Source of the DNA: a virus
Length of the DNA stretch: 64,000 nucleotides
Direction: 5' to 3' (one strand)
Virus record (IMG/VR): IMGVR_UViG_3300043446_004155
Span: 1-64,000 of that record
The translations under genes and the position numbers were made by a program. Below the pieces are notes generated by a model. That model searched no databases and was not told where the DNA came from. It saw only the letters and a list, made by a program, of their open reading frames with translations. This document shows positions 1-21,772 of the stretch, in pieces (the first letter of the stretch is position 1; each line of letters starts with the position of its first letter).

Positions 1-169
1 ACCACCATCCACCTTCCTCTGGACCGCCGTAGTTGAGCGTCGTTTCGTGGATGGTGATGACCGTTGGATCTTCGTGTTCGAAGTACTTGTGAGTTTTGTA
101 GGCTCCGATTGCGTATCGGGCTTTGTAAGTGTTGGGATAGAACTTCTTGAGTTCTGAGATGTAAGACAT
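1..169 (-). CDS. Hypothetical protein, C-terminus cut by window edge
   Basis: A minus-strand frame opens at an ATG at 169 and runs off the left edge without a stop, giving 56 residues that begin MSYISELKKFYPNTYKARY. A GGAG Shine-Dalgarno site lies about ten bases before the start. The composition, rich in Tyr, Lys, His and Glu, looks like a real protein and not a shadow frame. I do not recognise a family. It continues the run of small minus-strand genes that fills the first 3.2 kb. Confidence 0.6.
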   Translation of the reverse strand, partial: MSYISELKKFYPNTYKARYAIGAYKTHKYFEHEDPTVITIHETTLNYGGPEEGGWW

Positions 170-273
170 GATACAAACTCCGTGATGATGATTGAAATGA
201 TTGAGATCAGGATGACGATGATGTCACCGTCATCCCAAGCTTGTTTCAGTGTGTAGTTAGTAGTGGTAGTCAT
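1..273 (-). CDS. Possible small membrane protein overlapping its neighbour
   Basis: An ATG at 273 has a GAGAGG ribosome-binding site and opens a frame starting MTTTTNYTLKQAWDDGD. A hydrophobic, Ile-rich segment at about residues 18-34 would make one membrane helix. The frame then overlaps the whole of the gene starting at 169 and stays open to the window edge, where it is Ser/Thr-rich and looks like shadow sequence. Either a short membrane protein has lost its stop or this is a chance frame. Its start overlaps the end of the upstream gene by 17 bases. Confidence 0.3.
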   Translation of the reverse strand, partial: MTTTTNYTLKQAWDDGDIIVILISIISIIITEFVSCLTSQNSRSSIPTLTKPDTQSEPTKLTSTSNTKIQRSSPSTKRRSTTAVQRKVDGG

Positions 274-457
274 GGATTAAATACCTCTCGTTGTAATGGT
301 CGCATGCGTTGCGCTCTGCTGAGCTGATCTCTTCGATACCATCCCAGTCAGATTCGTTGCTTTCACGCATGGCTTCTTCTTGTTGGTGTGCAATGTCAGC
401 CATTGCATCGAGGTAATCAGCATTGCGTTGTTCATCAATGAAGTTAGGGTCTCTCAT
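257..457 (-). CDS. Small acidic hypothetical protein
   Basis: This 66-residue protein begins MRDPNFIDEQRNADYLDAM, is Glu/Asp/Asn-rich and ends in a Tyr/His-rich tail. I chose the ATG at 457 over an upstream in-frame ATG at 505 because the bases just before 457 (CACTCAACTCAACTC) match the leader repeated before other starts in this cluster. The longer form would add 16 residues. The family is unknown. It is probably an early host-takeover gene, judging only from its place in a run of tiny co-directional genes. Confidence 0.6.
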   Translation of the reverse strand: MRDPNFIDEQRNADYLDAMADIAHQQEEAMRESNESDWDGIEEISSAERNACDHYNERYLIHDYHY

Positions 458-507
458 GAGTTGAGTTGAGTGAAAGAATTGGTTGAACCTGGGACTTATA
501 TCCATTG

Positions 508-524
508 TTGAGAAGAGTTCTCAA
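508..524. promoter_or_regulatory. Palindrome TTGAGAA-N3-TTCTCAA
   Basis: A perfect 7-bp inverted repeat with a 3-base centre sits directly before the alternative start at 505. The arms TGAGAA/TTCTCA are the same as those of the Fur-box-like palindrome at 3436-3450, which suggests that one DNA-binding protein may read both. It could also be an RNA hairpin over the start codon. Confidence 0.4.
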
Positions 525-545
525 TAAGGAATGCCCAGGTATACG

Positions 546-561
546 TAGTACAAAAGTACTA
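546..561. promoter_or_regulatory. Hairpin TAGTAC-AAAA-GTACTA
   Basis: A perfect 6-bp stem with a 4-base loop lies in the short gap after the stop of the minus-strand gene at 572-1000. There is no T-tract, so it is not a normal intrinsic terminator. It could be an mRNA 3'-end or processing structure. Confidence 0.35.
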
Positions 562-571
562 GTGGCGGTGA

Positions 572-1000
572 TCAAACTGTGATGTGCGCCCAGGCAGTGC
601 CGTTGGCAATTTGGGCGATACGACAGTGGCTGACACCATACATACGACCAAGTTCGTGATAAGCCTTGGTCTTGCTGTTGAACTTAGTCATCAGCTCTGG
701 ATCAGCCAAGATCTGCTTCAGTTCTCTCACCTGAGATTCTGTGAGTTTCTGCTTGAAACGACGGCCCATCTCAAGGGCACGCGAAGGAGAAACTTGGGTC
801 TTCTTAACAGCCATAACCTGTGGTGCCGGCTGTTGCTGCAGGGGGATGTGGGGGGTTGTATCAAAGACTTTCGTCTTGAGTTGAAACCCAAGGGTCACTG
901 ATGATCCGTCTTTAACGACGGAGATGGTGACCTTGCCATCCCGTGTAATGACGCTGACGTGATCAGGGTTGTTGACGTCGAGCTGACTGAGCGCTTCCAT
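572..1000 (-). CDS. HTH protein with homing-nuclease-like C-terminal domain
   Basis: 142 residues. The N-terminal half has no recognised domain and ends in a Gln/Pro linker. Residues about 85-140 begin KLTESQVRELKQIL and continue through YHELGRMYGVSHCRIAQIANG. This is the helix-turn-helix pattern (resumption helix, tight turn, recognition helix) found at the C-terminus of HNH homing endonucleases and in small phage regulators. No HNH nuclease motif is present, so I infer a DNA-binding regulator built from such a domain. Its start follows a leader containing ACTCAAC and lacks a clear Shine-Dalgarno site. Confidence 0.6.
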   Translation of the reverse strand: MEALSQLDVNNPDHVSVITRDGKVTISVVKDGSSVTLGFQLKTKVFDTTPHIPLQQQPAPQVMAVKKTQVSPSRALEMGRRFKQKLTESQVRELKQILADPELMTKFNSKTKAYHELGRMYGVSHCRIAQIANGTAWAHITV

Positions 1001-1042
1001 GAGTGTTGCTGTGTTGAGTGCAGTGGATGCAGATGGAGAATA

Positions 1043-1072
1043 GCTGGTACCAGCAAGGATGCAAGTACCAGC
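1043..1072. repeat. Palindrome GCTGGTACCAGC plus second half-site
   Basis: A perfect 12-bp palindrome at 1043-1054 is followed at 1065-1072 by another GTACCAGC. The first arm and the distant half-site can also pair as an 8-bp stem with a 14-base loop. The element fills the gap between the stop of the gene at 1115-1465 and the start at 1000. It may be an operator or an mRNA structure. Confidence 0.4.
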
Positions 1073-1114
1073 CGTAGTGGTTCAGGCAGTGATGACACTA
1101 GTGGTAGTGCGTGG

Positions 1115-1465
1115 TTACTTCATGTACAAATACGATCCAGCCCAGTCGGCTTTCAGAAGGCAGGTCTCATACGACACATCGTCAAGCAGGTTGTACCGCA
1201 CATGTTTGGCTGGTGCCTTCCATGTGGCGGGCTTGTAAACAGCACCTGACTGGCGATGGATAAATGCATGGACACTGCCTTCGTAATTGCCGAGACTGTT
1301 ACGTGTAACATTCCGCTGGATGATCTTGTAGTACTTGGTGCCACGAACAATGTTGAATTCGATGCCACCATCTCCGTACTGCTTGTTGTAGTGTTCCAAA
1401 AGCTTATCGATCAAACGATTGATGCGGGCTTCTAGAACTTCAGTGTGTTCAGCGAGTGAGTACAT
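1115..1465 (-). CDS. Conserved cyanophage-type hypothetical protein
   Basis: 116 residues. The N-terminus is helical (MYSLAEHTEVLEARINRLID). The C-terminal half has a pattern I associate with small proteins in many cyanophages: GSVHAFI, GAVYKPATWKAPAKHVRYNLLD and a terminal DWAGSYLY. No catalytic motif is evident and the function is unknown. The start at 1465 overlaps the previous gene by 17 bases and is preceded by CCAACTCAAATC, a variant of the cluster leader. Confidence 0.75.
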   Translation of the reverse strand: MYSLAEHTEVLEARINRLIDKLLEHYNKQYGDGGIEFNIVRGTKYYKIIQRNVTRNSLGNYEGSVHAFIHRQSGAVYKPATWKAPAKHVRYNLLDDVSYETCLLKADWAGSYLYMK

Positions 1466-1643
1466 GATTTGAGTTGGATGGAAGTTGAATAAGGTCTACG
1501 CCAACCATTGCAGAGCCAGTGATGCCTGCAATGATGATGACGAATAGACCTTGAAGGATTCGACTACCGAGAGTCTCATTAGACGCATGGTAAGAATCAA
1601 GGGTGATGAACTTGTTCTTGCCCATGGAATAGATACGTTTCAT
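1449..1643 (-). CDS. Small single-pass membrane protein
   Basis: 64 residues with a basic N-terminus (MKRIYSMGKNKF) and one hydrophobic segment, LFVIIIAGITGSAMVGV, at about residues 33-49. A short tail follows. It is likely to sit in the host inner membrane. The start at 1643 follows CAATTCAACTCAG; an internal ATG at 1625 is possible. It overlaps the downstream gene. The function is unknown. Confidence 0.6.
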   Translation of the reverse strand: MKRIYSMGKNKFITLDSYHASNETLGSRILQGLFVIIIAGITGSAMVGVDLIQLPSNSNHVLTR

Positions 1644-1667
1644 CTGAGTTGAATTGATGAAGTGAAC

Positions 1668-1710
1668 GTAGTCCTGTGGTGAGGACTACAGAAAAGGGCC
1701 GAGGCCCCTT
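1668..1710 (-). terminator. Hairpin pair with terminator-like element
   Basis: Just after the stop of the gene at 1728-2114, read on the minus strand, comes a GC-rich stem (AAGGG...CCCTT with an inner CC/GG) followed by a short T-run. Then comes a perfect 8-bp hairpin, GTAGTCCT-loop-AGGACTAC, at 1668-1689. The first part looks like an intrinsic terminator of modest strength. Confidence 0.5.
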
Positions 1711-1727
1711 CGTGTAGTCGTCTGATG

Positions 1728-2114
1728 TCAGAACGGAATTTCTTCCAAGGTTGGTTCAGTCTTTGGTGCAGTAACCTCAGGCCGTACCTTGGGACGAGGA
1801 GCAGATCCTATGACGGCACGTACTTTCGTCAGTGCCATCTCCGGATACTTCAGTGCGACGAGATCGCCGTCCTTGAAGTAATGCGTACGGATGCTGTTGA
1901 GTCTGACATCAAATTGGGTGAGGATGAGCTGCTGACCAACCACGAGTGTGCCGTTGTTGTAGGCAGTCATCAAACCATTGGCATTATTGAACTTAATGCG
2001 GCAAGTACCTTCGTACATGTCGTTAACAACCATGGAGATCGCAAGGAACTCGCGACCTTCATGTGTAGCCAGCTCCATGTAACTGATGTTGCCAACAATG
2101 GTGTTAGAGAACAT
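1728..2114 (-). CDS. Candidate single-stranded DNA-binding protein
   Basis: 128 residues. It begins MFSNTIVGNISYMELATHEG with alternating beta-type strands (EFLAISMVVND, GTCRIKF, QQLILTQFDV), compatible with an OB fold. A Pro/Thr/Lys-rich linker follows and the last residues are TLEEIPF. That ending matches the acidic -DDIPF tail by which bacterial SSB recruits repair and replication proteins. The fold is inference; the tail is seen directly. It lies in the early-type cluster, consistent with replication. Its start follows CACTCAACTCAG. Confidence 0.5.
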   Translation of the reverse strand: MFSNTIVGNISYMELATHEGREFLAISMVVNDMYEGTCRIKFNNANGLMTAYNNGTLVVGQQLILTQFDVRLNSIRTHYFKDGDLVALKYPEMALTKVRAVIGSAPRPKVRPEVTAPKTEPTLEEIPF

Positions 2115-2161
2115 GATTGAACTGAGTTGAGTGAACTAGCAGACGATGAGGTCTGCAGAAA

Positions 2162-2179
2162 CCCATCCTTGTGGATGGG
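2162..2179 (-). terminator. Hairpin CCCATCC-loop-GGATGGG
   Basis: A perfect 7-bp stem with a 4-base loop follows the stop of the gene at 2192-2401. On the minus strand it is followed by TTTCT, a weak T-run. It is a probable intrinsic terminator or 3' stabiliser. Confidence 0.45.
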
Positions 2180-2191
2180 AAAGTGCAAACG

Positions 2192-2401
2192 TCACTTGAT
2201 CTTTAACTCTGCATTGTGGATGCAGTAGTACGTATCACCAAGGAAACCTTGGGTGTAAATGAGATTGTGATTGGGGCGTGAATTGCATGTTGCCTTGTAG
2301 TGCTGGTTGATGGCCTTCTGGCCAAACACAGATAGCATCATGCCTACGCCAGTGCCAAGCACAAGAGCGAGCGTTGCATCAAACATGTAGTTCTTAGTCA
2401 T
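2192..2401 (-). CDS. Small membrane-anchored hypothetical protein
   Basis: 69 residues. A hydrophobic helix, ATLALVLGTGVGMMLSVFG, at about residues 9-27 follows a short N-terminus and would anchor the protein. The rest is polar with two Cys residues. The family is unknown. The start at 2401 follows CACCTAACTGAACAGTC, a diverged copy of the cluster leader with no Shine-Dalgarno site. Confidence 0.6.
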   Translation of the reverse strand: MTKNYMFDATLALVLGTGVGMMLSVFGQKAINQHYKATCNSRPNHNLIYTQGFLGDTYYCIHNAELKIK

Positions 2402-2407
2402 GACTGT

Positions 2408-2575
2408 TCAGTTAGGTGAGATGAAGTTGGACAGAGCAGTGCGGTAACCATTGACCTCATGGATCAATGCCTCCCTTCGTACTTTGAGCTGAGCCTTAAC
2501 ACGCTCAGGGGTCTGGTCTTGGGCAACCTTGACTGCTGCGACAGCAAGGAGTTGCGATAGTTTTGCACGTAACAT
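2408..2575 (-). CDS. Small helical hypothetical protein
   Basis: 55 residues, predicted helical and basic (MLRAKLSQLLAVAAVKVAQD at the start). I chose the ATG at 2575 because CTAACTCAACTC lies right before it. A start at 2629 would add 18 residues but would run through the hairpins at 2588-2634. The function is unknown. It sits 6 bases from the start of the next gene, so the two are probably co-transcribed. Confidence 0.6.
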   Translation of the reverse strand: MLRAKLSQLLAVAAVKVAQDQTPERVKAQLKVRREALIHEVNGYRTALSNFISPN

Positions 2576-2587
2576 GAGTTGAGTTAG

Positions 2588-2634
2588 GCCACCCTCGGTG
2601 GGTGGCAATGATTGTCCAGGGGTTTGCACCCTGG
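2588..2634. repeat. Twin hairpins; one resembles a tRNA T-arm
   Basis: Two perfect stems sit side by side: GCCACCC-5-base loop-GGGTGGC (2588-2606) and CCAGGG-7-base loop-CCCTGG (2616-2634). They lie between the stop of the gene at 2651-2944 and the next start. The 7-base loop on the minus strand is TGCAAAC, like a tRNA T-loop. The arrangement matches the gap at 2944-3032. Confidence 0.45.
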
Positions 2635-2650
2635 AACCCGCTTAGACGGA

Positions 2651-2944
2651 TCAATCCTGGTCGGCGTCTGCCAACTCGATCTTCATAAGCTGTCGCATTG
2701 ACAGCTCAGCAAGATCAAACTTCTCAACAGACCATTCGTAGAAGAAGTGCTCACGATAATCGCAGTTACGATCACCGCATTCACAAGGCTTGGTAATCCA
2801 ATCCGTCTCTTCTTCCTTGGCCTGCTTTGAAGATAGTTCCACAGCCTTAGCTTCAGCTTTACGCTTAGAAGCGTAATACGCAACGACACAAGGCTCGTTA
2901 TAGTAAGCCCTACGGTTGAACTCGGTGAGCGTGTAGACGTGCAT
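2651..2944 (-). CDS. Hypothetical protein with Cys cluster
   Basis: 97 residues, starting MHVYTLTEFNRRAYYNEP. A CECGDRNC motif near residues 54-61 could bind a metal ion, and the C-terminus is acidic. I chose the ATG at 2944 because GGAGAG lies six bases before it. A frame from 3019 would cross the tRNA-like structure. The N-terminus has the look of short cyanophage proteins that format host signals, but I cannot name a family. Confidence 0.65.
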   Translation of the reverse strand: MHVYTLTEFNRRAYYNEPCVVAYYASKRKAEAKAVELSSKQAKEEETDWITKPCECGDRNCDYREHFFYEWSVEKFDLAELSMRQLMKIELADADQD

Positions 2945-2988
2945 GGATCTCTCCATGTGTGCGGTGCCCATCTCCGCTGGGGGCAATA

Positions 2989-3032
2989 CTGAGTGGGGGA
3001 TTCGATCCCCCGGCATCACGCCTGGTACTCAG
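2989..3032 (-). ncRNA. tRNA-like three-stem structure
   Basis: On the minus strand a 44-base segment folds as an outer stem CTGAGT/ACTCAG, a small stem GGC-GTGAT-GCC, and a T-arm-like hairpin GGGGG-ATCGAAT-CCCCC with a 7-base loop close to the tRNA consensus. It has an acceptor-like stem and T-arm but no anticodon arm, so it is not a working tRNA. It includes the stop codon of the gene at 3029-3226. It may protect or process mRNA 3' ends, or be a tRNA remnant. Confidence 0.4.
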
Positions 3033-3226
3033 AACGGAATCTCGTCCAGCACTTTGGGCCAAGGCCCATAGCTGTGGATCTCGTTATCTTCCAGAGTCAC
3101 GAGGTAAGCTTCCATGGCTTCTTTGCTACGGAAAAACTTACGCTCGTACTCGGGCTCAAAGTCGTCGCAATAAACATCAACGGTGGTGACAAAATAATGC
3201 ATGGTGTTAAATGCAATGGACTGCAT
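3029..3226 (-). CDS. Small protein with SSB-like C-terminal tail
   Basis: 65 residues (61 or fewer if translation starts at the internal MHYFVTTVDVYCDD). The middle is rich in Glu, Phe and Lys. The last residues are VLDEIPF, again the acidic tail that bacterial SSB uses to bind partners, as in the gene at 1728-2114. There is too little sequence for a full OB fold. It could mimic the SSB tail to compete for host replication or repair proteins. That role is inference. Confidence 0.55.
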   Translation of the reverse strand: MQSIAFNTMHYFVTTVDVYCDDFEPEYERKFFRSKEAMEAYLVTLEDNEIHSYGPWPKVLDEIPF

Positions 3227-3296
3227 GCGTGTTACGGATGCGCAACCCCCGATTAATCCTCATCTAATCCCGATCTATTAGGTCGGAATTAAATAA

Positions 3297-3381
3297 CAAA
3301 CTCCTGGAACCTCCACGCTCACTGTCCTATTTGGACCGCCGGAGAGCGGGAGGCGAAACCCCAGTTCGGGCGCGGAGTTTG
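3297..3381. ncRNA. Structured noncoding segment
   Basis: The 3227-3675 gap holds no convincing gene. Within it, CAAACTCC (3297-3304) pairs perfectly with GGAGTTTG (3374-3381), enclosing nested CGCTC/GAGCG and other GC-rich stems. The overall size is 85 bases, but there is no T-arm or anticodon arm in the right place, so it is not a tRNA. It may be a small RNA made near the junction between the early cluster and the virion module. Confidence 0.35.
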
Positions 3382-3399
3382 GAGGATTTAACCTCGTTC

Positions 3400-3415
3400 G
3401 ATACGAATTCGTATC
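3400..3415. promoter_or_regulatory. 16-bp perfect palindrome
   Basis: GATACGAATTCGTATC is a perfect palindrome with no spacer, seven bases before the terminator stem at 3422. A dimeric repressor or a nuclease could read it. It lies in the noncoding hub between the minus-strand early cluster and the plus-strand virion genes. Confidence 0.4.
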
Positions 3416-3421
3416 AAAAAT

Positions 3422-3471
3422 CCCGACGATATTAATGAGAATCATTCTCAATAACGCGTCGGGTTCTTTTT
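3422..3471. terminator. Two-way intrinsic terminator
   Basis: CCCGACG (3422-3428) pairs with CGTCGGG (3457-3463). On the plus strand a run of T residues follows; on the minus strand the stem is followed by ATTTTTG. The loop carries the 15-bp palindrome at 3436-3450, so the whole unit can form one long hairpin. It insulates the two opposite-facing halves of the window. Confidence 0.6.
3436..3450. promoter_or_regulatory. Fur-box-like operator
   Basis: TGAGAATCATTCTCA is a perfect 7-1-7 inverted repeat that agrees closely with the bacterial Fur box pattern TGATAAT-N-ATTATCA. It sits in the loop of a terminator and not next to an obvious promoter, so its operator role is uncertain. A related palindrome lies at 508-524. 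Confidence 0.4.
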
Positions 3472-3624
3472 TTCTACGCGCATCTACTCTCGGTTGGGGG
3501 TTGGGAGAAGCGTCAGGTAATTTTGTACCCTTTTCAGCGGTGTATAGGCCCCCTTTTGGTATAAACGTGTACCATTTATTGCAATTTTGTATGTAATTTC
3601 CCTAATTAGCCCAAAAATTGACAC

Positions 3625-3648
3625 AAAAAAGCCGGGGTTGGCCCCGGC
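3625..3648 (-). terminator. Intrinsic terminator
   Basis: On the minus strand, GCCGGGG-CCAA-CCCCGGC (7-bp stem, 4-base loop) is followed by six T residues. It lies 28 bases after the stop of the gene at 3676-3888, which it most likely terminates. Confidence 0.75.
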
Positions 3649-3675
3649 AATTAACCCAAATATTACAGTGTTGTT

Positions 3676-3888
3676 TTAGACGGCGCCTTTTTGTATGTGC
3701 TGTGTCGCCAAACTGACGGCCTGTTGGTATTTTTGCGTGTCTGGCACAGCTCTTGCTAGCTCCTGGCCCGCAGCTGCCCTCATTTTTTGGACTTCGAACG
3801 GGTGCATTCCACCTTCACGCAGTTCATTGGCGCGTTGGTCAATTGTTTGACGAATATTTTCGCGCCTTTCCTGCTGTTCTTCGTTCAT
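3676..3888 (-). CDS. Small helical hypothetical protein
   Basis: 70 residues, highly charged and probably all helix (MNEEQQERRENIRQTIDQRA). No domain is recognised. No Shine-Dalgarno site is visible before the ATG at 3888. A strong terminator follows. It is divergent from the large virion gene at 4010, with a 121-base shared upstream region that is AT-rich and likely holds promoters for both. Confidence 0.6.
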   Translation of the reverse strand: MNEEQQERRENIRQTIDQRANELREGGMHPFEVQKMRAAAGQELARAVPDTQKYQQAVSLATQHIQKGAV

Positions 3889-4009
3889 TTGTAGAGTAAC
3901 TTACCGGTTTTACGGTTTATATTCCTAAGTTTACAGGATACTTACGTTTTTTAATTACCCAAAGTTAGAATGTAACCAATAAAAGTTAAAAAGATACGTC
4001 TTAAAGGTT

Positions 4010-19769: not shown

Positions 19770-21772
19770 GGAGGATAAACCAAGGTGTTTATTGATAGCT
19801 AGTTCAGATCCTGGTAGGTATGACCTTTCAAGATTTGGTAAATAGCTCCGTGGTTACAGTCAAACTTTTCAGCAATCTTTCGATACGAGAGTCCTGCTTC
19901 TTTTAAAGCTTTGATTTGAATCACGTCTTCCGAAGAAAACTTTCTCAAAGTCTTTTTCGGTTTCCCTTTACTGGCAAAGCCATTGTTTTTATAACAACCG
20001 GTTTCCCAGGCTCTTGTTAAGTTTTCTTGTTTGGTAACGATCTCAAGATTGTCAAGTCGATTATTCCTCTTGTCATTATCTTTGTGATCAACTTGAAGGG
20101 AAAAGTTACTGGTTCCATGAGAACGCAGATCTAATCCCAAAAAAGCTACAGCCATCAAGACGTGAAGATGAAAACGTTTTCTCTTCCCATCAACAAGAAC
20201 TGAAATACGGTCATAAACACTGGTTGAGCGAATAGGGATCTCTTGAAAATATTCTTGATTATCGGGATCAAGTTGTTTTTCAAAAGCTTTCCCCTCTTCC
20301 GTTAAGTAAAGATTACCAAATCCAGGAACAAGTTTTGGATTCATGTTGTTCATAAACAAGTTTCCAAAGCGTAGCATGCCTCAACTGAACGCTCAACGTT
20401 GTCACCCCACCGAGCAATCGATGGGTGCAAACCGGATGAATTCAGGGAAGCCCTAACGTTAAGACGAGGGTAATCCTGAGCCAAGCCAATCAAGCGTGAT
20501 TGGAAGGTGCAGAGACTACTGGGTGTAACACGACCTTGTTACGTAATACCAGATTTAGCGTCCGGCATCCCACAGGGATGAAGAGATAGTCCACCCCTCT
20601 AAGAAACTAGAGACCAGGAGAACGACTTTCCAAAAATTCTTGGTGCGGAACTTTACCGTCCCCACCCTGCTTACATTGCTGAAATGGCAGTGGAGCCCGT
20701 GGTCGTCCACGACTTCACCCGTCAGCCTGGTCAAACCGTTCAGTTAGACCGCTACAAGTTCTGGGGTACCCCTGGCACCAAGGATAGCCGGGAGCGTATC
20801 GCTGACCAGACTATTGGTACCGCCAACAGCCGCAACATCACCAAAGAGAAGGTGCTTGTTGTGCTGAAAGAGTACACTGGCCCTGCTGACCCGGGTGATC
20901 CGACCCAGCCTTCGACCTTCAAGATCGCTCGTGAAACCCTGATTACCGCCCAGCGCCTGCTGCTGGACACCGGTAACCTCAACATGTTCCACCAGTCGAT
21001 CGGCAGCCTGACTCTGCTCGACGACTATCGCCGTTGGCGTGACCGCGTGTTCATCGATGAACTCGCTAAAGCCGAAGCCAATGGTGAAGCTTCCAGCACC
21101 CAAGGTGGTTACTACTTCCCTGGTGGCAAGAACAAAGCTTCTAACGGTTCTATTGCTTACACTGCTGCTGAATACGCCGCTCAGGTGCAGCAGTTCCAGG
21201 TGCGTACCGACCTGCTGACCGTTGTTAAGGACCTGCGTAAGCGCAACGTTCCTACCTTCGCTGATGGTCTGTATCGTTGCATCTGCGATCCCACCTTCAT
21301 GATGCACCTGCGTCGTGATCCTGACTTCCGTGAGATCGCTCGTTACAGCGGCAACCCTGGCCAAGGCATGTACATGGGCAACCCCATGATGCCTAACAAC
21401 GCCAGCTTCTACATGGGTCCCCAAGCTGGTCAGGGTTACTTCCTGGCTGGTGAGCCTGTGATGCCGACTGGTGTTCAGTTTGAAGGTGTGAAGTTCTTCG
21501 AGTCGACCAACTTCCCGACCAAGACTGTTAGCGCAAGCTTCACCGACACCCCTTCGTACAGCAACCAAGAAGTTGCCCAAGGTTACTTCTTCGGTCCTCA
21601 GTCCATCGGTGTTGGTATCGGCGGTCCTAACGCTCAGGTGCTCATCAACAACAACGATGACTTCAGCCGTTTCATCATCCTGATCTGGCAACTGTACGCT
21701 GGCTTCGAGATCCTGAACAAGGACTTCGTAACCACCGCCTTCAGTTTTGTTTCTGACGACGGCACCATCTGA
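19770..21772 (+). CDS. Major capsid protein, split by a group I intron
   Basis: I infer two exons: GTG at 19785 to 19796 (Met-Phe-Ile-Asp) and 20621-21772, giving 387 residues; 19770-19774 is the GGAGG ribosome site, so the feature span includes it. Exon 2 is open upstream of the ATG at 20684, reading NDFPKILGAELYRPHPAYIA, which joins in phase to exon 1. The rest has a P22/N4-type coat look: a VRTDLLTVVKDLRKRNVP helix, GLYRCICDPTFMMHLRRDPD, and a C-terminal beta region. Exon 1 ends in U and the intron in G, as group I splicing needs. Without splicing, translation would stop after five codons. A start at 20684 would lose 25 residues. Confidence 0.8.
19797..20620 (+). ncRNA. Group I self-splicing intron in capsid gene
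   Basis: The core at 20420-20620 has the conserved group I order: a UCAGGG strand (P4), GCCCU/AGGGU (P5), AAUCCUGAG, perfect CCAAUC/GAUUGG (P6), GCAGAGACUA with the matching UAGUCC (P7, GACUA/UAGUC), GUAACA/UGUUAC (P8), CAUCCC/GGGAUG, and CUCUA/UAGAG (P9). The AUUCAGGG and GAGAUAGUCC stretches are diagnostic. I could not resolve P1 or the guide sequence, so the 5' boundary at 19796/19797 rests on the in-phase protein junction. An HNH gene lies inside on the opposite strand. Confidence 0.85.
19799..20377 (-). CDS. HNH homing endonuclease, antisense inside the intron
   Basis: 192 residues. It has an HNH core, VDHKDNDKRNNRLDNLEIVT (about residues 95-114), typical of HNH homing enzymes, then a C-terminal helix-turn-helix (DVIQIKALKEAGLSYRKIAE...GAIYQILKG) that would recognise the target. 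It occupies most of the intron's 5' part but is transcribed against it; its stop codon lies two bases from the intron's 5' end. Intron homing genes usually run with the host gene, so the opposite orientation is unusual. The start could also be the internal ATG at 20353. Confidence 0.85.
   Translation of the reverse strand: MLRFGNLFMNNMNPKLVPGFGNLYLTEEGKAFEKQLDPDNQEYFQEIPIRSTSVYDRISVLVDGKRKRFHLHVLMAVAFLGLDLRSHGTSNFSLQVDHKDNDKRNNRLDNLEIVTKQENLTRAWETGCYKNNGFASKGKPKKTLRKFSSEDVIQIKALKEAGLSYRKIAEKFDCNHGAIYQILKGHTYQDLN

Follow-up and report, generated by a model that had tools for sequence, protein, structure and literature searches.

The leader motif in the minus-strand gene cluster

The 64,000-nt stretch analyzed here (the window; positions 1 to 64,000 of IMG/VR virus record IMGVR_UViG_3300043446_004155) opens with minus-strand genes, many of whose starts are preceded by a repeated, almost G-free leader. 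This leader and the folded RNA elements that often lie upstream of it are the subject of this analysis. The source record comprises 82,624 nt and repeats 127 bases at both contig ends; the genome is therefore circular, of about 82.5 kb, and the arbitrary cut runs through the gene cluster that carries the leader. The nearest named relative, and top match, is Synechococcus phage S-EIV1 (KJ410740). Gene order is conserved, the window from 4010 onward being collinear with S-EIV1 from 45021 onward, and protein P0001 shares 41% identity with its S-EIV1 counterpart over 99%. By gene order and homologous proteins, the phage belongs to the S-EIV1-like cyanophages, a group of cyanobacterial viruses from lakes. 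The minus-strand cluster starts at about 66 kb, crosses the contig junction, and reaches 3.9 kb in the window, which thus holds the tail end of a longer replication and small-gene cluster containing DNA polymerase A, a single-stranded DNA-binding protein (SSB), GP88- and PcfJ-type proteins and numerous small genes of unknown function. Judging from this gene content, the cluster is presumably early.

A sequence-only reading of the window had proposed that a repeated leader takes the place of Shine-Dalgarno (SD) sites before seven minus-strand starts (457, 1000, 1465, 1643, 2114, 2401, and 2575). All seven starts are present, and none has a nearby in-register SD core. Five of them (457, 1000, 1643, 2114, and 2575) have an exact 7-mer, ACTCAAC or TCAACTC, no more than 30 nt away; across 1000 dinucleotide-shuffled versions of the seven leaders, the mean was 0.7 and the count stayed below 5 every time. 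Start 1465 has a near match, CCAACTCAAAT, which is a 6-mer only, and the leader of start 2401 (CTAACTGAACAG) holds no copy of the motif. The 7-mer is found in 4.6% of the 30-mers on the minus strand of positions 1-3900 and in 0% on the opposite strand; TCAACTCA occurs nine times in the window, compared to 2.7 expected, with six of the nine copies on the minus strand within 1-2600. The leaders and the hairpins upstream of them are as follows (ortholog counts give those preceded by the motif).

458-486, minus strand: leader of gene 257-457, a G-free AYTCA repeat, ...TTTCACTCAACTCAACTC, up to the ATG; orthologs 30/32
1001-1030, minus strand: leader of gene 572-1000, with ACTCAAC at 1013-1019; orthologs 19/28
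1043-1072, minus strand: predicted hairpin GCTGGTAC/GTACCAGC in the intergenic gap before the 1000 leader
1466-1495, minus strand: leader of gene 1115-1465 (DUF7717 family), CAACTCAAATC, within the 3' end of the upstream open reading frame (ORF) 1449-1643; orthologs 20/26
1644-1673, minus strand: leader of ORF 1449-1643, ATTCAACTCAG
1684-1719, minus strand: strong predicted hairpin in the intergenic gap before the 1643 leader
2115-2144, minus strand: leader of gene 1728-2114, CACTCAACTCAGTTCAATC
2162-2179, minus strand: predicted hairpin CCCATCC/GGATGGG, with TTTCT after it, in the intergenic gap before the 2114 leader
2402-2431, minus strand: C/A-rich leader of gene 2192-2401, a weak case with no exact motif; orthologs 4/23
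2576-2587, minus strand: short leader of gene 2408-2575, TAACTCAACTC
2588-2606, minus strand: putative hairpin GCCACC/GGTGGC, read from the sequence, adjoining the 2575 leader

When this phage and S-EIV1 are taken together, the exact 7-mer precedes 18/89 cluster starts and 0/90 late starts, and a G-free run of at least 20 nt lies directly before the start in 23/89 and 0/90, respectively. Gene starts in most loci are our own calls; the deposited S-EIV1 starts give the same picture (7/43 cluster versus 0/45 late). The earlier statement that genes outside the cluster lack the motif thus holds for the late genes, but the cluster itself exceeds the window, extending to about 66-82.6 kb of the record. 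The proposed replacement of SD sites stands only in part. SD-like cores in the cluster are indeed near the shuffled level (16/89 versus 12.9 +/- 2.2), but those of the late genes are likewise barely above chance (30/90 versus 24.4 +/- 3.0), and SD scarcity is therefore not particular to the cluster.

Composition, periodicity, and conservation of the leader

Relatives fetched by protein similarity (loci L126-L155) were pooled with this phage and S-EIV1. Spacer sequence running from the upstream folded element to the ATG contains 4.2% G, and both forms of the motif exceed their frequencies in dinucleotide shuffles about 6- to 13-fold (ACTCAAC, 20 versus 2.7; TCAACTC, 25 versus 1.9). The comparison with random sequence that had been suggested as a check thus comes out clearly in favor of the motif, here and in relatives. 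The leaders have a 5-nt period, with a lag-5 z of 7.0 in this phage and S-EIV1 and of 24.5 in 311 relative leaders; no such period is seen in late-gene leaders. The repeat unit is AYTCA, so that ACTCAAC and TCAACTCA are both readings of a single tandem repeat whose end lies at or close to the ATG. Around the start, G-poor early leaders are predicted to be unpaired with a probability of 0.66, versus 0.50 for late ones (P = 4e-10).

The ortholog counts listed above compare with shuffle expectations of 2.0 (gene 257-457), 2.1 (gene 1115-1465), and about 1-2 (gene 572-1000); for gene 80948-81130, the motif precedes 26/27 orthologs, versus 1.9. These counts are biased upward by sequence relatedness and by the fetching of some loci by pattern, an effect that would hardly be this large. 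The leader is retained at about 60% protein identity. It is essentially absent from the regions examined in the T4-like cyanophages syn9, S-H35, and DSL-LC03. An IMG/VR pattern scan for ACTCAACTCAAC-N-ATG was discarded as too unspecific.

Two folded RNA elements upstream of the leaders

Upstream of the leaders lie folded RNA elements that the sequence-only reading had missed and that may be the more interesting part of the locus. One of them, named H2 here, has a single copy in the window.

487-540, minus strand: H2 element ACCTGGG-CAT-(variable hairpin TTGAGAACTCTTCTCAA)-TATAAGT-CCCAGGT, directly upstream of the leader of gene 257-457

Its consensus, CUGGG-CAUC-variable hairpin-GUGUAAGU-CCCAG, describes a stem with a conserved internal loop. 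The outer stem covaries: in at least 116 copies, the first three pairs beyond GGG/CCC form in 110/116, 103/116, and 81/116, compared to 81, 63, and 44 in shuffles. Further copies in the full record lie upstream of genes 80948-81130 and 81717-81977, and H2 is also found in phages far from S-EIV1. In three other phages (L048, L297, and L340), H2 stands just before a tRNA-like sequence. A candidate promoter before gene 257-457, TTGAGA-N18-TATAAG, was rejected, being in reality the variable hairpin of H2.

The other element emerged from the aligned leaders of gene 78914-80638, which share the upstream block CGUC-C-UGGGCA-U-GACG-UUAAAC-UGCCCA. This block is a 28-nt H-type pseudoknot in which stem S2 joins UGGGCA to the 3' end and stem S1 joins the first four bases to GACG; its consensus is YGUC-C-URRGYA-N-GACR-UUAAAC-UGYYYA. 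The full record holds the following copies.

67,925-67,952 of the full record, minus strand: pseudoknot before a 39-aa ORF
About 72,386-72,413 of the full record, minus strand: pseudoknot before the SSB gene
75,540-75,567 of the full record, minus strand: pseudoknot before the GP88-family gene
80,661-80,688 of the full record, minus strand: pseudoknot before the PcfJ-like gene

ORF 67068-67853, called behind one of these pseudoknots, proved to be a wrong call; a conserved 39-aa ORF (MFESILGIV...) begins there instead. When orthologous leaders were picked by the loop alone, with pairing ignored, both stems formed, every pair being present in 10/10 distinct sequences. An IMG/VR pattern placing no constraint on the outer S1 pair or on most of S2 returned at least 98 distinct matches, in which the unconstrained S2 pairs form in 86/98, 95/98, and 95/98 (shuffles, 70, 76, and 74) and the outer S1 pair forms in 87/98 (shuffle, 57). 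S1 also varies as a whole stem (CGUC/GACG, UGUC/GACA, GGAC/GUCC, CGAC/GUCG, UCUC/GAGA, and UGAC/GUCA). Covariation thus supports both crossing stems.

Beyond the S-EIV1 group, the pseudoknot occurs in phages of Staphylococcus, Lactobacillus, Streptococcus, Mycobacterium, Arthrobacter, Corynebacterium, Vibrio, Nostoc, and others. For the more distant of these, the blastn E-values are weak, and those listed were read individually. A match in E. coli phage Bp7 was set aside because its S1 is not properly formed. In a collection covering 84,980 species of bacteria and archaea, a pattern with one version of S1 matched three contigs only, and the pseudoknot is therefore essentially a phage element. 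In one IMG/VR locus (L264), pseudoknots are arranged in a tandem-like manner, a second loop copy, GACGTTAAACT, following about 30 nt after the first. In Staphylococcus phages B166 and D6E and Streptococcus phage Javan383 (L271, L279, and L281), the pseudoknot occupies the gap before the gene preceding the major capsid gene; this intervening gene is of scaffold type where annotated.

Placement and exchange of the folded elements

The pseudoknot avoids coding sequence, lying within an ORF in 15/104 cases, whereas 78% of randomly placed positions in these contigs do so. Among at least 116 copies within 12 nt of a stop codon, the distance is 5 nt in 66/116 and 6 nt in 21/116, and three copies lie closer than 5 nt; H2, unlike the pseudoknot, has no lower limit on this distance. 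Because of the 5-nt spacing, an effect of the pseudoknot on the terminating ribosome is possible. Stop-codon readthrough was considered and rejected: frame 0 is open through the element in 52/62 cases and frame -1 in 49/62, with no frame preference.

What lies downstream is a gene, often at a distance of 20-100 nt, or a phage tRNA; in related contigs (L158, L169, L177, L181, L235, L239, and L245), a tRNA-Asn gene follows the pseudoknot immediately. Since both elements also precede phage tRNA genes, they are probably more than translation signals for the gene that follows, and a role in boundary formation, processing, or end protection may be envisaged. Many leaders occupy gaps of about 55-65 nt that immediately follow a stop codon and a structured RNA. 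Among the 32 orthologs of gene 257-457, 13 have H2, 11 have the pseudoknot, and 8 have neither, with near-zero false positives in shuffles. Accordingly, H2 and the pseudoknot seem interchangeable before a given gene, the leader being retained.

Neither element has a family in Rfam 15, and searches of the openly licensed literature by loop sequence and topic returned no earlier description, although one may exist elsewhere. The spread reported here is a lower bound for both. Elsewhere in the window, in the late region, a group I intron (Rfam RF00028, 90 bits) occupies 20372-20613 on the plus strand.

A putative unstructured leader behind a proposed cistron boundary

We lean, with slightly better than even confidence, toward the leader being an unstructured RNA feature for SD-independent initiation and the folded element marking a cistron boundary. 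The leader is a stretch of 20-30 nt, almost free of G, built of AYUCA units, and ending at or near the start codon. Since it has few G residues and little self-complementarity, it would stay single-stranded. The 30S subunit could then land on the open leader, probably via ribosomal protein S1, and find the AUG without SD pairing. The intercistronic RNA that often precedes it, whether the pseudoknot (mostly 5-7 nt after the stop), the H2 stem, or an ordinary hairpin, probably parts the cistrons, ending one message segment and forming a boundary or protected end of the next, with the leader supplying the downstream gene with its own start site. Promotion of initiation by the leader, the involvement of S1, and the function of the folded elements as boundaries are all putative, as is a dependence of expression on leader openness. 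The cluster genes show no clear SD excess and less structure around the start, the features of SD-independent initiation from an unstructured leader. SD-less genes, of which cyanobacteria have many, are translated from start regions that lack local structure (PMC3121790), and 5' untranslated regions are less structured in SD-less cyanobacterial genes (PMC6847405).

Several observations weigh against this proposal. Reporter expression did not correlate with AU content (PMC3121790), which speaks against a simple S1 or AU-binding role. SD-less initiation does not in itself require the leader, because the late genes are also near chance for SD yet lack it. The T4-like cyanophage syn9, with similar hosts, exceeds chance in SD-like sites (23 versus 14.7 +/- 1.8) and has essentially no such leader. 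The motif precedes 0/33 SSB orthologs, though the pseudoknot is present in 26/33. Finally, openness alone leaves the repetition of one 5-nt unit unexplained.

That 5-nt period makes protein binding attractive: the AYUCA repeats could be sites for a ring-shaped or cooperative RNA-binding protein of phage or host, one unit per subunit, that switches early and replication genes together. Sequence conservation beyond composition and the confinement of the motif to one gene class in one phage group fit this idea, and the pseudoknot upstream of the phage SSB gene recalls T4 gene 32. However, the number and register of the units vary, and the SSB leader lacks the repeat, unlike that of autoregulated gene 32; we regard this explanation as possible but doubtful. 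The leaders might also be functionless by-products of G avoidance or of duplicated intergenic cassettes. Simple repeats can expand, and the related phages share leaders by descent, the relatedness of the loci being observed. This origin appears improbable, since dinucleotide shuffles do not produce the motif and the leader is kept both at the protein identity given above and before gene 257-457 when the adjacent folded element is swapped.

A signal at the DNA level, belonging to a promoter or operator that immediately precedes the start, would account for a repeated sequence so close to the ATG. A sigma-70-like scan of positions 1-4000 gave two matches, both on the plus strand, against 5.1 expected by chance, and none on the minus (coding) strand. 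Moreover, the leaders lie within 55-65 nt after a structured RNA and a stop codon, and the leader at 1466-1495 is inside the upstream ORF, making a DNA-level signal very unlikely. Among the three options raised originally (translation enhancer, protein-binding site, and promoter), the enhancer fits best, the leader being G-poor, less folded, beside the ATG, and kept with its gene, and the promoter is disfavored.

Taken jointly, the two elements would be interchangeable cistron-boundary modules, common to phages of many host phyla, behind stop codons and before genes or tRNAs, acting in processing, end protection, or post-termination ribosome control; in S-EIV1-like cyanophages they would be coupled to an (AYUCA)n start leader. 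A pseudoknot 5 nt behind the stop would sit at the mRNA entry of the terminating ribosome. We give this wider view an even chance. If it is true, structured RNA 5 nt behind stops, in phages whose hosts include Firmicutes, actinobacteria, and cyanobacteria among others, would represent an undescribed strategy that phages share for dividing long messages, involving two widespread RNA elements that no Rfam family covers. The compact leader may drive SD-free expression in cyanobacteria and is a possible tool.

Comparison with known systems

The leader shares with described SD-independent initiation the lack of an SD site, a G-poor open leader by the AUG, and the cyanobacterial setting (PMC3121790, PMC6847405). 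It differs in having a specific 5-nt unit, in being restricted to one gene cluster, and in usually standing behind folded RNA; no shared motif is reported for the general case.

STAXI RNAs consist of two to three tandem pseudoknots with UUCG loops in Enterobacteriales (Rfam RF01728; PMC2864571). No scan matched RF01728 at gathering or E-value thresholds, including that of the tandem-like L264. The likeness lies in a pseudoknot in phage-related DNA near SSB genes.

The recoding pseudoknots of RNA viruses, which act in readthrough or frameshifting, are H-type and lie 5-7 nt behind the A-site codon. The pseudoknot described here has the same type and spacing, the A-site codon being a stop codon. 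It differs in that a tRNA gene may follow and frames 0 and -1 are equally open, so that no readthrough product is favored.

In T4 gene 32, SSB binds a leader pseudoknot and the adjacent single strand, thereby regulating its own synthesis. Here, the pseudoknot precedes several genes and tRNAs, occurs in phages of unrelated hosts, and lies right behind stops, and the SSB leader is without the repeat. The likeness is that of a similar-size H-type pseudoknot before an unpaired leader, with the phage SSB gene among its targets.

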